Shown: positions 25,328 through 33,922 of the stretch, piece after piece | Position numbering within the stretch: the first letter of the stretch is position 1 | Layout: each line of letters starts with the position of its first letter | Assembly (NCBI RefSeq): GCF_031598375.1 | Contig: NZ_CP123872.1 | Location: 1,779,001-1,843,000, forward strand | From: Temperatibacter marinus | Lineage (GTDB): Bacteria > Pseudomonadota > Alphaproteobacteria > Sphingomonadales > Kordiimonadaceae | DNA length: 64,000 nt | Direction: 5' to 3' | Notes under the pieces: generated by a model | What the model saw: the letters and a program-made list of their open reading frames with translations, nothing else | The model's database searches: none | What the model was told of the DNA's origin: nothing | Position numbers and translations under genes: made by a program

Positions 25328-26077
25328 CTATTGATTTAGGAATGAGGGGCCGATGGTTGGAACATTATAAGCATTCCCCAATAGGGTAGACAAACTACCA
25401 TTCTTGTGGCTTTGCGCAATGAAGGCGGAAATTTTGGCTATATTAACAGGCGCGTCTTTATGGCAGATAATCTGTTCTTTTCCTGTCCAAACTAAAGTAC
25501 GCGCGGAGGTCATTTTACGGGTAAGAGCTGCTGCTTTAGGGATGTTGATAATGTCGGGATAAATGATATAGGCTGCATCCAATCGGTTCTTTTGAACCAA
25601 TGTTAATAAGCGAAAATAATTTCGAATTGAAATTGCTTTATAGGTATCCTTTTGAATACCATATAGATTGCCGCTTCCAACAGTGCCAATGGTGGGCATA
25701 TCCTTTGTCAGATTCGTCATATACTGAGTAGATCTATACAGATAGCCAGAAGCCTCATTGAAGGCGGTTGAGATTGTATAGTCTGTTTCATCAAGATCAA
25801 ATTCATGAAAATGTTGCATGGATGTCGGGCCAAGGCAATGGGCCTTTTTATTCCAAAACATACGGCGTGCGCGGCGGATAGGAGCGACGACCCAAGATTT
25901 TAAGTGGCCTTCATTGACTAAGTGCTGAAAAAATTTGGCATAGGGTCCTTGTTGATCTTCGCCAATTAACCCTTCTAAATCGAGGATGACAAGGTCAGGA
26001 ATGTCATCATCCGAGAAAGCTCGAGGAGAGGGAAGGCTATGTATCAGGATAATAAAAATGATCGTTAGTCTGAACAT
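25328..26077 (-). CDS. exported binding-protein-like paralogue 2
   Basis: Exported 249-aa protein, signal peptide about residues 1-22, same family as the genes at 24487 and 28632. Shared landmarks: LVILDLEGL, APIRRARRMF, HCLGP, STAFNEASGYLY, MPTIGTVGSG, ISIRNYFRLL, RLDAAYIIYPDI, IICHK and GSLSTLLGNAY. The pattern is that of a family-3 solute-binding-like fold with an altered ligand pocket. It lies 100 bp upstream of paralogue 1 on the same strand and may share a transcript. Ligand unknown. Confidence 0.7.
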   Translation of the reverse strand: MFRLTIIFIILIHSLPSPRAFSDDDIPDLVILDLEGLIGEDQQGPYAKFFQHLVNEGHLKSWVVAPIRRARRMFWNKKAHCLGPTSMQHFHEFDLDETDYTISTAFNEASGYLYRSTQYMTNLTKDMPTIGTVGSGNLYGIQKDTYKAISIRNYFRLLTLVQKNRLDAAYIIYPDIINIPKAAALTRKMTSARTLVWTGKEQIICHKDAPVNIAKISAFIAQSHKNGSLSTLLGNAYNVPTIGPSFLNQ

Positions 26078-28631: not shown

Positions 28632-29387
28632 CTATTTCTGCGCGGGATGGATGTATTTATTCTCAATGAGTTCATCCATAGCACCAGAGGTGATGAGAGC
28701 GTCTATTTCTTTTGAGAGAGCCACAACAGCCTCGCCTGCTTGCTTGTGACAAATTATCCGTTCGGCTCCTTGCCAAGCGGCTTCTCTAAAAGGCGAGAGC
28801 TTCAGAACAAGTTCATAAGCCTTGCCGTGCTCTAATATGTCAGGAAATGTGACAAGAGCGGCATCTAGGCTACCGTGATTAACCATGGATAACAGGCGAA
28901 AATAGTTTGGTATCCTAACGTGCTCAAAATGCTCTCTGGTCCATTGTCCTTCAGCCATGACGCCAATACTGCCAATCTTGGGAACAGATTTTGTCATGGC
29001 TTGTTGATCTGTAAAATAGAGGTAAGCAACAGCATTGTTAAAAGCGCTTGTCATTGTGAAGTTTTGAGGATCTAATCCTCGATCTGTTATAAAGTCCAGA
29101 TCAACTGGAGCAATACAATCATATCCTTTTTCTAGAAAGATACGTTCTGCACGGCGTGTAGGCGCTACTGTCCAAGATGCAATCTTGTTCTTGCTTTGAA
29201 GGTAATTAAGAAAGCCAGAGTATGAGCCTGTCTTATTCTCATTCAATAAGGTTGGAATAGACAATACTATCAAGCTTGGCATCTCAGGTGCAGGCTCTTC
29301 GATGGCATCTAAGCCAGCATAGGCAAGCCCTGAAGGTAATGAGAAGAGGGTCACTAAGGCGATATACTGTCTGATTTTCAAAGCCAT
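28632..29387 (-). CDS. exported binding-protein-like paralogue 3
   Basis: Exported 251-aa protein, signal peptide about residues 1-24. It shares with the genes at 24487 and 25328: LIVLSIPTLL, APTRRAERIF, DCIAP, TSAFNNAVAYLY, VPKIGSIGV, RIPNYFRLL, SLDAALVTFPDI, IICHK and a terminal helix near AMDELIENKY. Function unknown; a family-3 solute-binding-like fold is inferred from length and motif order. It is divergent from the sdh operon and upstream of the S9 peptidase on the same strand, with an AT-rich gap between. Confidence 0.7.
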   Translation of the reverse strand: MALKIRQYIALVTLFSLPSGLAYAGLDAIEEPAPEMPSLIVLSIPTLLNENKTGSYSGFLNYLQSKNKIASWTVAPTRRAERIFLEKGYDCIAPVDLDFITDRGLDPQNFTMTSAFNNAVAYLYFTDQQAMTKSVPKIGSIGVMAEGQWTREHFEHVRIPNYFRLLSMVNHGSLDAALVTFPDILEHGKAYELVLKLSPFREAAWQGAERIICHKQAGEAVVALSKEIDALITSGAMDELIENKYIHPAQK

Positions 29388-29520
29388 GATGCTGTCATGT
29401 TGTTATTAAAAGCAGAGTTTATCATTAAACTATGGAATTACAATTTATTAAATCGCTCATAATAAGAGGAGGACGATTTAGAAGCGGCAATGCTTTTTCT
29501 TGGTGAAAAACGCAATTAGC

Positions 29521-29592
29521 CCCTTGCCTAGAATGATCTAAGGGTCTAAAACACTTAGCATAAATCCCTCGAACCTCGAGGGGAGGCTAACA
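29521..29592 (+). ncRNA. structured leader of the sdh operon, class unknown
   Basis: Before the terminator-like hairpin lie a CCCTT/AAGGG hairpin with inner TAGA/TCTA (29521-29544) and a two-helix element: TTAGC (29555) with GCTAA (29586), enclosing CCCTCGA/TCGAGGG (29566-29582). GAACC at 29571-29575 is complementary to GGTTC (29601-29605) in the following hairpin loop. The start point is not known; a weak promoter (TTGCCT-17-TAAAAC, 29525-29553) would leave out the first hairpin. Confidence 0.4.
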
Positions 29593-29632
29593 AGCGCTTT
29601 GGTTCCCAACACTCTGAAAAGCGCTCTTTTTT
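29593..29632 (+). terminator. terminator-like attenuator directly before sdhC
   Basis: AGCGCTTT (29593-29600) and AAAGCGCT (29618-29625) form a perfect 8-bp stem followed by CTTTTTT. It lies directly before the sdhC SD (GAGGA, 29633-29637). The upstream gene is on the other strand, so this can only act on the sdh leader transcript itself. Confidence 0.65.
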
Positions 29633-29644
29633 GAGGAATTGATA

Positions 29645-30031
29645 ATGGCAAAAGTTGATCGCCCACTATCGCCCCACCTCCAAGTCTATAAATGGCGTGT
29701 CCATATGTTCACGTCTATCATGCACCGTGCTACTGGATCAGCTCTAGCAGTGGGTGCTCTCATTATGACCTGGTTTTTGGTGGCTTTGGCTGAAGGCTCT
29801 GCTGCCTTTGATACTTTCATGACGTGCATGTCGTCACCCCTTGGTAAACTTGTTTTGATTGGAATGACATTCGCGTTGATGCAGCATTTAGCATCTGGCA
29901 TTCGCCACTTGATTATGGATACTGGCAAGCTCTATGAGCTTAAAGCCAACACATCCTCTGCCAATTTGACATATGTCTTTTCAATTCTGACCACAGCCTT
30001 GATTTGGTTGTTTGGTTATGGTTTGATTTAG
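29645..30031 (+). CDS. sdhC: succinate dehydrogenase cytochrome b556 subunit
   Basis: Membrane anchor of complex II, binding haem b and quinone. About 128 aa with three membrane helices; the N-terminal signature RPLSPHLQVYKW and SIMHRATGSAL, and the haem-ligand region HLASGIRHLIMDTG, are typical. The ATG at 29645 is 7 nt after GAGGA; a TTG two codons earlier is the alternative. First gene of sdhCDAB, behind the attenuator-like hairpin. Confidence 0.95.
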   Translation: MAKVDRPLSPHLQVYKWRVHMFTSIMHRATGSALAVGALIMTWFLVALAEGSAAFDTFMTCMSSPLGKLVLIGMTFALMQHLASGIRHLIMDTGKLYELKANTSSANLTYVFSILTTALIWLFGYGLI

Positions 30032-30040
30032 GAGGTTGCG

Positions 30041-30424
30041 ATGACAGATATGAAAGCACCACTTGCTAAAGTCCGCGGCCTTGGATCCGCAAAAAATGGG
30101 ACGCATCATTGGTGGATGCACCGTGTAACTGCGCTGGCTAACATTCCCTTAGTGATTTTTGTTGTCATTTCCTTTATGGGAAATTTACATAAAGGATATG
30201 CTGATTGGGTTGCATGGTTGCAACAGCCTGTCGCTGCTGTGGTTATGGTTCTCTTCGTGGCAAACATTTGCTATCACATGCGTCTCGGTCTTCAGGTGTT
30301 GATCGAAGATTATGTGACAAATAAAACCAATAAAGTTGCCGCTATGATGGCTGTGTCTTTCGGTATAATACTGATGGCAGGCCTTGGCATTTTTTCAATT
30401 CTTAAAATTGCATTTGGAGGCTAA
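30041..30424 (+). CDS. sdhD: succinate dehydrogenase membrane anchor subunit
   Basis: Second membrane anchor (127 aa, three helices) of succinate dehydrogenase, completing the quinone site with Sdh[17 protein letters not shown] at the N-terminus and the histidine in [16 protein letters not shown] (probable haem ligand region) fit the alphaproteobacterial SdhD family. Nine nt separate it from sdhC. The stop lies 2 nt before the start of sdhA. Confidence 0.94.
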
Positions 30425-30428
30425 TTCA

Positions 30429-32219
30429 ATGTCAGCAAGCTATCCAATTACAGAACATACCTATGACGCCGTTGTTGTTGGTGCAGGGGGTTCTGGATTA
30501 CGTGCGACTATGGGCTTAGCGGAGCAAGGCCTGAGAACTGCATGTATTACAAAAGTATTTCCAACTCGGTCCCATACTGTGGCTGCACAGGGCGGTATCG
30601 CTGCATCTCTTGGCAATATGCCAGGTGGTGATAAATGGGAATGGCATATGTTCGATACTGTCAAAGGGTCAGATTGGCTCGGTGATCAAGATGCTATTGA
30701 ATATATGGTGAAGCAGGCACCTGAAGCCGTCTATGAGCTTGAGCATTACGGTGTTCCTTTCTCTCGAACAGAAGAAGGTAAGATTTACCAGCGTGCTTTC
30801 GGGGGGATGACAACTGATTTTGGCGAAGGCCCTGCAGCGCAGCGGACATGTGCTGCCTCAGATCGTACAGGTCATGCGATGCTTCACGCCATGTATCAGC
30901 AGTCTCTCAAATACGATAGCGATTTCTTCATTGAATATTTTGCTATTGATCTCATTATGGAAAACGGGGAATGCCGCGGTGTGATTGCCATGAATATGGA
31001 AGATGGATCGATTCACGCTTTCCGCAGTCATGCGACAGTTCTAGCAACAGGCGGTTACGGTCGTTCTTACTTTTCTGCGACCTCTGCTCATACCTGTACA
31101 GGTGATGGAGGCGGTATGGCCATGCGTGCTGGGATTGCTCTTCAGGACCTTGAATTTGTCCAGTTCCATCCAACTGGTATTTACGGCGCGGGTGTTCTGA
31201 TTACTGAAGGGGCACGCGGTGAAGGCGGTATTTTACGTAACTCAGAAGGCGAGCGCTTTATGGAGCGCTATGCTCCATCGGCAAAAGATTTGGCCTCTCG
31301 CGACGTTGTGTCACGCTCGATGTCTAACGAAATTCGCGAAGGCCGGGGTGTTGGTACAGACGGCGATCATATTTTCTTGCACCTGGATCATCTTGATCCA
31401 GCAATTCTTGCGGATCGCCTGCCAGGCATTTCTGAATCAGCGAAAATTTTCGCAGGTGTTGACGTAACCAAAGAGCCAATACCAGTGATCCCTACAGTTC
31501 ACTATAACATGGGCGGTATTCCAACGAACTATCACGGCGAAGTCATTAATCCGACATCTGACAATCCTGACAATACTGTCAATGGTCTGTTTGCCGTTGG
31601 TGAGGCAGCTTGTGTCTCTGTTCACGGTGCAAACCGTCTTGGGTCTAACTCTTTGATTGATCTTGTGGTCTTCGGCAGAGCTGTGGGTCTGCGTGTTCCT
31701 GAGCTTGTGAAAGCAGGGACTTCTCATAAAGCACTTCCAAAAGGCTATGAAGATATGGCCCTTGGACGGTTAGACGCTGCACGATATGCTGATGGTGCCA
31801 TTTCTACAGCTGACCTTCGTTTAGAGATGCAACGGACAATGCAAACAAATTGTGCTGTATTCCGCACGGAAGAAGTTCTTTCTGAAGGCGTGAAGAAGAT
31901 TGATGAGACTGCTGCTAAAATTGGTGACGTTAAAACATCGGATAGATCTCTTGTTTGGAATTCTGATCTCATTGAAACTCTAGAGCTTCAAAACCTTATG
32001 GGTCAAGCTGTGATGACGATGCACAGTGCTGCAAACCGTAAGGAATCTCGTGGGGCTCATATGCATGAGGATTACCCAGATCGGGATGACAAGGAATGGA
32101 TGAAGCACACAGTGTCTTGGTTTGACGGCAAAGACGTTAAACTTGGATATCGCCCAGTTCATGAGTATACTCTCACTGAAGAGATTGAGTATATCAAACC
32201 TAAAGCTCGTGTATATTAA
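30429..32219 (+). CDS. sdhA: succinate dehydrogenase flavoprotein subunit
   Basis: Catalytic subunit with covalent FAD, oxidising succinate to fumarate. 596 aa. FAD motif [20 protein letters not shown], the flavinylated histidine in [10 protein letters not shown], substrate-site segments [10 protein letters not shown] and EGARGEGG, and the catalytic Arg region RLGSNSL. I chose the ATG at 30429, which gives the family start; the frame extends 45 nt into sdhD. Third gene of the operon. Confidence 0.97.
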
Positions 32220-32242
32220 ACCGGAATTGAAAGGATAATAAA

Positions 32243-33022
32243 ATGGCTGAATTTTCGTTACCTAAAAATTCCAAAGTGAAAAAAGGTGCTGAGTTTAAAG
32301 CACCTGCTGGTGCGACAAATGTAAAGAAGTTCCATGTTTACAGATGGAATCCAGATGATGGGAAAAACCCACACATGGATACATACGAAGTCGATATGGA
32401 CAGTTGTGGCCCTATGGTTCTAGACGCCTTGATCAAGATTAAGAATGAGATGGACAGTACACTTACTTTCCGCCGCTCTTGTCGTGAGGGTGTTTGTGGC
32501 TCCTGTGCGATGAATGTAGACGGTGAGAATGCACTTGCCTGTACAAAATCTATTGAAGAAGTGAAAGGCGATGTATCAATTACTCCGCTGCCCCACCAAG
32601 AAGTGATTAAAGACTTGGTGCCGGATCTCACAAATTTTTATGCTCAATATGCAAGCATTAAACCTTGGATGCAAACACAGTCAACGACCCCTACAAAAGA
32701 GAGACTTCAGTCTATTGAAGATCGTTCAAAGCTTGATGGTCTCTATGAGTGTATTCTGTGTGCCTGTTGTTCAACATCTTGCCCGTCTTACTGGTGGAAT
32801 GGAGATAAATATTTAGGACCTGCTATTCTGCTGCAAGCCTATCGCTGGTTAATTGATAGCCGCGATGAAGCAACAGGGGATCGTCTAGACAATCTTGAAG
32901 ACCCGTTCAGGTTATATCGATGTCATACGATTATGAATTGTTCTAACACATGTCCGAAAGGTCTTAACCCTGCGAAAGCCATTGCAGAAATTAAGAAGAT
33001 GATGGTTGAACGCCAACATTAA
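32243..33022 (+). CDS. sdhB: succinate dehydrogenase iron-sulfur subunit
   Basis: Electron-transfer subunit (259 aa) with three Fe-S clusters: [2Fe-2S] ligands in [10 protein letters not shown] and the later Cys of LACTKS, [4Fe-4S] in [16 protein letters not shown], and [3Fe-4S]/[4Fe-4S] completion in [14 protein letters not shown]. It hands electrons from SdhA to the quinone site. Last gene of sdhCDAB, followed by a strong terminator. Confidence 0.97.
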
Positions 33023-33196: not shown

Positions 33197-33922
33197 ATGC
33201 GTGTAGTTATTTTATATTTAGTGGGTTTTTTCATTGTTGGTCTGGGGCCAGCCGTTGAAGGACGGGCAGCAGAACAGAAACCTGATGACCCCCAGGAGAC
33301 AATACATGTTGCTGTAGGCTTGGCGACAGTTTATGCCCATGTGTTTGAAGAAATCCTGAGACAATCGAATGTACCTTTTGTCATGCAGAGGTATGATTAT
33401 AAGCAAATTCGGAAAAACTTTATTGAGGGAAAGGTTGGCATGACTTGTTGCTCTCATCCGATTTGGCGTAACCGACCCGAAGAAGTTAAAATACAGCATT
33501 TCACCAAGCCTATTTTTTATGCCATCAATAGCTATGCCTATCATAAAGATATTGATCCAAGTGTCGCTACCTTTAGCAATGCTAATTTAACATTCGCTGC
33601 AATTATAGGGTGGACCTATACCGATGATATTAAAACAAAAAAGTGGAAATATTTTAAGTCAACAAAAGAGGCTACAGAATATGTTCATGATAACGAAAAT
33701 GCTTTTACTGTCGTTAATAGGCAAGACTTTTTGAGGTTAGGCCTCGATCGAGAATTCGATGTGACGATCAGAGGAGTTTATGAGCGTAAAGCTATTCATA
33801 TTCGGGTCCGAGATACTTATAAACACTATATTCCTCGGATGAATGAAGTCATCAAAAAGATGCGTAAAACCCTTCAGATTGAGAGGATTATTGCCTCTGA
33901 AATTAGGAAGCAACCTGAATAA
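33197..33922 (+). CDS. orphan periplasmic solute-binding-like protein
   Basis: Exported 241-aa protein, signal peptide about residues 1-24 (cleavage near GRAAEQ). The body starts IHVAVGLATVYAHVFEEIL and has YDYKQIRKNFIEGKVGMTCC, as in ABC-type solute-binding proteins of family 3. It is distinct from the three paralogues at 24487-29387. No transporter genes adjoin it. Its 3' end overlaps rsmD, on the other strand, by 20 nt. Ligand unknown. Confidence 0.68.
   Translation: MRVVILYLVGFFIVGLGPAVEGRAAEQKPDDPQETIHVAVGLATVYAHVFEEILRQSNVPFVMQRYDYKQIRKNFIEGKVGMTCCSHPIWRNRPEEVKIQHFTKPIFYAINSYAYHKDIDPSVATFSNANLTFAAIIGWTYTDDIKTKKWKYFKSTKEATEYVHDNENAFTVVNRQDFLRLGLDREFDVTIRGVYERKAIHIRVRDTYKHYIPRMNEVIKKMRKTLQIERIIASEIRKQPE

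Follow-up and report, generated by a model that had tools for sequence, protein, structure and literature searches.

Does the DNA ahead of the sdhCDAB operon of Temperatibacter marinus encode a leader that senses a metabolite and decides whether the operon is transcribed? Such a switch, composed of a two-helix RNA element and an attenuator-like hairpin, had been proposed from the letters alone (here called the sequence-only reading) for positions 29521 to 29645 of the window, i.e. the whole 64-kb stretch of DNA that was analyzed, which belongs to a single-contig genome of 3.18 Mb. Each of the four genes of the operon is backed by Pfam. The product of sdhC (29645..30031, plus strand, ATG at 29645) matches Sdh_cyt with an E value of 1.4e-28, and the products of sdhD, sdhA and sdhB (30041..33022, plus strand) match Sdh_cyt, FAD_binding_2 with Succ_DH_flav_C, and Fer2_3, respectively. 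The Shine-Dalgarno sequence of sdhC, GAGGA (29633..29637, plus strand), is located 7 nt before the ATG at 29645. The 5' neighbor, an ORF at 28632-29387 on the minus strand, is divergent to sdh, as had been stated, and gave no match in a Pfam search. It is also one of three secreted-looking ORFs of 241-251 aa around sdh (25328-26077 and 28632-29387 on the minus strand, 33197-33922 on the plus strand). Two of the three share an IICHK motif and resemble each other by eye; they perhaps encode solute-binding proteins.

The genomes compared comprised 296 of the order, including 29 of the family in nine genera, with one genome of the source genus. Upstream regions were taken from 97 sdh loci (L002-L098, L002 being the window's own), of which 93 were counted: L072 and L074 were dropped because they had no sdhC start by the authors' rule, and two distant loci, L032 and L033, were left out. 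Sixty extra loci had been hand-picked among the matches listed to spread the families, and the locus sets include near-identical species. The counts at gene ends, inside genes, in divergent regions and for other promoters rest on gene calls by a simple ORF rule of the authors. The reading favored here, with a probability of about 0.6, is that of an ordinary promoter and a leader with a 5' protecting hairpin and a second hairpin before the Shine-Dalgarno sequence, but with no metabolite switch.

Promoter and predicted transcription start

A predicted housekeeping (RpoD-type) promoter is located at positions 29523..29552 on the plus strand. It contains the elements CTTGCCT and TAAAAC, with a 17-nt spacer after TTGCCT, and its extended -10 element reads TCTAAAAC. 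Comparison by eye indicated that the pair CTTGC...CTAAAA is common to the regions 5' of sdhC in relatives. A position weight matrix was made from the sdh sites of relatives (74 of 92), without that of the window under study. With this matrix position 29523 scores 19.4 bits and ranks first over both strands of the 64-kb window, and in 400 kb of the same genome a score of at least 19.4 bits occurs at 3 of 798,400 control positions. Among the sdh upstream regions of the order (window included), 75 of 93 pass the promoter score, compared with 109 of 1,860 shuffled sequences. A generic scan for promoter and terminator patterns did not list the sdh promoter, which is not E. coli-like. The RpoD consensus of Caulobacter is given as TTGaCgS - GCtANAWC in an excerpt of PMC8144410. 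The sdh -10 sequence TCTAAAAC fits its GCtANAWC part at seven of eight bases, with N counted, whereas the sdh -35 sequence TTGCCTA fits TTGaCgS only at TTG and C and has C, T and A in place of the consensus bases a, g and S. Two further points of likeness to the promoters of that excerpt (PMC8144410) are the 14 bp between the sdh boxes and the presence of the site at sdh across the order. With a -35 and a -10 element at proper spacing that are conserved at orthologous genes, positions 29523-29552 look like a strong and conserved, yet ordinary housekeeping promoter.

A copy of the sdh-type promoter that scores 21.4 bits was found elsewhere in the same genome (L104, 2130-2235), where it precedes an unrelated ORF that reads by eye as a HAD-like hydrolase. 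The occurrence of the same promoter before an unrelated gene indicates general use rather than an operator or signal of sdh.

When T 29547 of the -10 element is taken as -12, transcription is predicted to start at 29557..29560 on the plus strand, best placed at about 29559. From the position of the -10 element, the sdh transcript thus probably starts near 29559. In the favored reading, the RpoD-type promoter would drive sdh, and the RNA beginning near 29559 would have a leader of about 86 nt. The region 29521-29645 had been taken as leader RNA over its whole length, which agrees with this prediction only downstream of the start, since 29521-29552 looks like the promoter. The predicted start lies upstream of position 29600, which agrees with the sequence-only reading as far as a prediction can tell.

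The hairpin at the predicted 5' end

The repeats described for the first element are present on direct reading: TTAGC (29555-29559) and GCTAA (29586-29590) flank CCCTCGA (29566-29572) and TCGAGGG (29576-29582). The inner repeats form the 5'-proximal hairpin of the predicted sdh mRNA (29566..29582, plus strand), which begins at about +8. Six of its seven pairs have a probability of 0.93-1.0 and the innermost one has 0.75, with starts from 29557 to 29560 and in every fold. The outer helix (29555..29590, plus strand) exists in the DNA but is mostly absent from the predicted RNA, with at most three pairs if the start is at 29557. For the leader up to the U-tract, its pair probability is 0.83-0.93 with a start at 29557, 0.66 at 29558 and about 0 at 29559; with the first sdhC codons added it is 0.23-0.26 (start at 29557). 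Since a start at about 29559 falls inside the outer helix, most of TTAGC/GCTAA would not be transcribed. The two-helix RNA element proposed earlier does not survive this placement: the larger part of the outer helix does not extend past the predicted start, and the RNA would carry a simple 5'-proximal hairpin instead.

The claim that the leader is structured holds. Folding of 29553-29592 gives a z score of -3.77 (0 of 200 shuffles fold as well), and folding of 29550-29632, which includes both hairpins, gives -3.20 (1 of 200). For 29512-29632 the z score is -2.50 (3 of 200) and for the 176-nt stretch 29495-29670 it is -1.13 (24 of 200). The 72 nt before the Shine-Dalgarno sequence of sdhC have a z score of -2.42. 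Six of the 94 divergent 5' regions of the genome (sdh included) reach -2.4 or lower, and the mean of these 94 regions at a fixed cut of 72 nt is -0.23. Among the sdh leaders of relatives the group means range from -2.7 to +0.3, with about -1.1 to -1.3 in the family of the window.

A stable hairpin at the predicted 5' end recurs in relatives. Leaders shorter than 45 nt were dropped from this count and from the leader z scores, which left 72 of the 93. A hairpin with a dG of -8 or lower that starts by +20 was found in 50 of these 72 leaders, related species among them not being independent, compared with a shuffled mean of 24.1 and a highest value of 29 in 20 rounds. When the promoter score was required as well, 46 of 62 leaders contained the hairpin, vs 23.6 on average after shuffling, with no more than 29 in any of 20 rounds. 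The two controls additionally required enough sequence, which was available for 52 and 22 loci. The DNA just upstream of the promoter showed no excess of hairpins at this dG (11 of 52 vs 10.8 shuffled), and the leader from +25 showed 10 of 22 vs 6.9 (highest 11). The hairpin is therefore position-specific at dG -8, whereas at dG -10 the control from +25 is above its shuffles too (8 of 22 vs 3.9, highest 7). Eleven other genes of the genome have a promoter score of at least 9. Four of their leaders reach dG -10, vs 0.9 (highest 3), and four reach dG -8, vs a shuffled 2.5 (highest 4). This excess indicates that the 5' hairpin may not be a trait special to sdh.

Alignments were made for two groups of relatives. 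In g9, 15 of the 19 leaders were aligned and analyzed for covariation; L011, L014, L025 and L037 were left out, and L018, whose promoter was probably mis-assigned in the start prediction, was corrected by hand for this alignment only. In the MAFFT alignment 74.7% of the cells pair in the helix named by the authors, a value reached by 22 of 500 shuffles. Covariation was not significant: its score was equaled or exceeded in 67 of 500 shuffles, and the count of pairs changed on both sides in 453 of 500. With RNAalifold, the g9 alignment folded without a 5' hairpin and gave only three pairs, over the Shine-Dalgarno sequence. The stems differ between species by eye and are not aligned by MAFFT, which makes the covariation test weak either way. 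For the 13 leaders of family f8 (L039-L045, L048, L051, L053, L055, L056 and L076) RNAalifold gave a 6-bp hairpin with changes on both sides in three of its six pairs. Most f8 leaders have a purine-rich arm in the 5' hairpin, e.g. GGGGAGG...CCTCC, which sits just 3' of the predicted start.

According to an excerpt of PMC3997798, a 5' hairpin can shield mRNA from decay that depends on the 5' end. Like the 5' stem-loops of E. coli ompA and papA in that excerpt (PMC3997798), the stable sdh hairpin lies within a few bases of where the long message is predicted to begin, and its sequence varies between species. Unlike these, it would be preceded by about seven unpaired bases if the start is at 29559. 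Positions 29566-29582 most likely form a hairpin that protects the 5' end. Located within the first 25 nt, it would guard the long sdhCDAB mRNA against decay that begins at this end.

The second hairpin and the proposed switch

The second hairpin with its C-T6 tract (29593..29632, plus strand) resembles a terminator, but an atypical one. AGCGCTTT at 29593-29600 pairs with AAAGCGCT at 29618-29625 in eight of eight Watson-Crick pairs, four of them GC, with a loop of 17 nt and a dG of -9.1. It is followed by C, T6 (29627-29632), GAGGA and the ATG at 29645. A perfect 8-bp stem with CTTTTTT directly before the Shine-Dalgarno sequence of sdhC can thus be read from the DNA as described. A TTG mini-ORF of 11 codons was also noticed by eye at this place; it extends from 29599 to the TGA at 29632-29634 and starts about 13 nt 3' of a GGAGG.

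The hairpin and U6 could be a true terminator, possibly leaky or under the control of a factor, that determines how much polymerase proceeds into sdhCDAB and whose short product may be a small RNA. This explanation is rather doubtful. In its favor, the perfect stem and U6 are at the right place. Of 20,000 leader shuffles, 8 contain a perfect stem of 8 bp or more that adjoins a run of five or more T, and 29 do so when 7 bp suffice. The pair probability of the second hairpin is about 0.6-1.0. Folded alone (29590-29635), its energy is not unusual, with a z score of -1.03 and 31 of 200 shuffles as good. Its loop argues against a typical terminator. Terminator-like hairpins were found at 29 of 178 gene ends of the genome, where one or more bidirectional terminators were counted twice, once from each side. 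Their loops are 3-6 nt long and their dG ranges from -8.4 to -22.6. None of the 29 has a loop of more than 6 nt, whereas that of the sdh hairpin has 17 nt and its dG is near the weak end. A pattern scan with a loop limit of 8 did not list the hairpin. An intrinsic terminator has a GC-rich stem, a short loop and at least six U directly 3' of it. The sdh element has the 8-bp stem and the U6, but half of its pairs are GC, its loop lies outside the range of this genome and its energy is among the weaker ones.

Counts over the genome and over the relatives point in different directions. By the energy criterion, 4 of the 94 divergent 5' regions sampled (sdh included) contain a hairpin with a T-tract, as do 46 of 1,880 shuffles; 4 vs 2.3 expected is no clear excess of terminator-like elements in such regions, which speaks against attenuation. 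Inside genes, such an element was found in 5 of 288 stretches. Among predicted sdh transcripts, 7 of 93 leaders contain a hairpin plus U-tract, vs a mean of 1.3 and a highest value of 4 in 30 rounds. In the family these are 5 of 29 leaders (L002, L003, L004, L015 and L020), vs a mean of 0.8 (highest 3), and represent three of nine genera (g1, g3 and g4), since L003 and L004 belong to one genus and L015 and L020 to another. Over 120 nt upstream the numbers are 9 of 93 vs 3.9 (highest 9) and 6 of 29 in the family vs 1.7 (highest 5). Both g3 species have the hairpin just before the U tract, with stem letters that differ in part by eye; MAFFT does not align the arms. Due to the excess over shuffles in the family, leaky or regulated termination is a live rival. 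The T share is also raised in the 12 nt before the Shine-Dalgarno sequence of the 29 family leaders (0.41 vs 0.28 over the leader, with at least 6 T of 12 in 11 of 29), and the T-tract may accordingly be part of the region bound by the ribosome. Transcription attenuators have an intrinsic terminator before the first gene, and the sdh hairpin and U-tract likewise lie between promoter and Shine-Dalgarno sequence. They differ from attenuators in the 17-nt loop, and no antiterminator, sensor or conservation at family range was found for sdh.

An attenuator also needs an alternative pairing that frees one arm of the terminator. The sequence-only reading had proposed that GAACC (29571-29575) pairs with GGTTC (29601-29605). 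Both sequences are present on direct reading, but a match of five bases is expected with a chance of 0.107 for random orders of the two 17-mers, i.e. about 1 in 9, and of 0.268 for the whole first element. Moreover, this pairing joins loops only and touches the loop of the terminator, not its arms, so the switch is not borne out. No segment of 29557-29675 outside the arms pairs with at least six bases of either arm. Within the same range the 5' arm has two partners of five bases, with one and two G-U pairs, and the 3' arm has none; only one five-base partner lies within the leader, and two of its pairs are G-U. The lack of an alternative partner of at least six pairs for either arm stands against an attenuator.

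That a riboswitch or another ligand-binding leader controls sdh is extremely improbable. The structure of the first element (z -3.77) favors it, but the pairing proposed for the switch is at chance level and the transcribed part of the element would be one short hairpin. One short hairpin is small for an aptamer. A search of the 64-kb window with Rfam 15 gave no matches. For 29300-29750 at E values up to 10 there were five matches, all far below the gathering scores; the one with the lowest E value was L20_leader on the other strand, with 17.9 bits vs a gathering score of 58.7. The statement that no known riboswitch class is recognizable is thus in line with Rfam. A DNA search with the leader in the 296 genomes of the order (E 0.001, best three candidates or fewer per genome) matched the own genome only. 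A lack of conserved helices in related sdh leaders would speak against the sequence-only reading, and the lack of any DNA match to the leader in the 295 other genomes of the order does so, but at family range only, with one genome of the genus compared. This result counts against both the riboswitch and the attenuator. Among the titles listed in literature searches, none deals with attenuation in an sdh leader. The analysis thus lends no support to a switch that senses a metabolite. In the favored reading the sdh leader would lack such a switch, and the second hairpin with the U-rich stretch would be a lineage-specific structure before the Shine-Dalgarno sequence that causes at most weak, constitutive termination.

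Other modes of control and meaning for the family

Translational control is a further alternative, in which CCUCGAA of the 5' hairpin pairs with UUUGAGG over the Shine-Dalgarno sequence, so that opening of the hairpin would hide this site. The bare leader shows this pairing in its fold of lowest energy (-21.9 kcal/mol), which is close to the fold with the two hairpins (-21.3 for 29559-29632). When the first sdhC codons are added, the 5' hairpin prevails, with probabilities of 0.93-0.99 for six of its pairs and 0.75 for the seventh, and this makes the mechanism quite unlikely; the Shine-Dalgarno sequence is still predicted to be largely paired, to other bases. Targeting of the sdhC leader, or of its ribosome-binding site, by a trans-acting small RNA is very unlikely. 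A precedent is known from Bacillus subtilis, where FsrA acts on the ribosome-binding site of sdhC (excerpt of PMC3574147), and excerpts of PMC3574147 and PMC5371410 describe small-RNA pairing and RNase III cleavage for sdhC in other bacteria.

The arms of the second hairpin also permit a reading at the level of DNA, by which a LacI-type regulator would bind, 3' of the start, to two AAGCGCT repeats with a distance of 27 bp. Such repeats are presumably a LacI-type operator motif, and the self-complementary AGCGCT is present in both arms. In 464 kb of the genome AAGCGCTT occurs 24 times, vs 21.9 expected, so it shows no enrichment. On the sense strand of the 200 nt upstream of sdh, neither AAGCGCTT nor AAAGCGCT occurs at any other of the 93 loci. 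Based on these motif counts, the LacI-like operator was rejected, and its chance is slight in the extreme.

Sequences like GAATCATTCTCAATTAAT were observed upstream of sdhC and downstream of the predicted start in L015 and L020, and also in L023 and L092. They resemble a Fur-type iron box, which suggests that sdh may be under iron control in some relatives. In the sdh region of the window no Fur-like box was seen by eye.

A more far-reaching view would combine the two hairpins. The sdh messages of the whole order would open with a hairpin that keeps its structure while its letters change freely, and in some genera of the family (g1, g3 and g4) the second hairpin with its U-tract before the Shine-Dalgarno sequence would add a regulated brake, independent of sequence, on transcription into the operon. 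This combination is unlikely. The arrangement of a promoter and a leader that opens with a hairpin is a recurring and ordinary one, and the tendency to form a 5' hairpin is its most interesting residue. If the favored reading of an ordinary promoter and a protected, switch-free leader is right, one riboswitch candidate would be removed, and the sdh promoter and start site would be placed for an alphaproteobacterial family that has been little studied. The 5' hairpin, position-specific in sdh leaders of the order, would then be a small, testable hint that protection of the mRNA end may be selected on a central respiratory operon.
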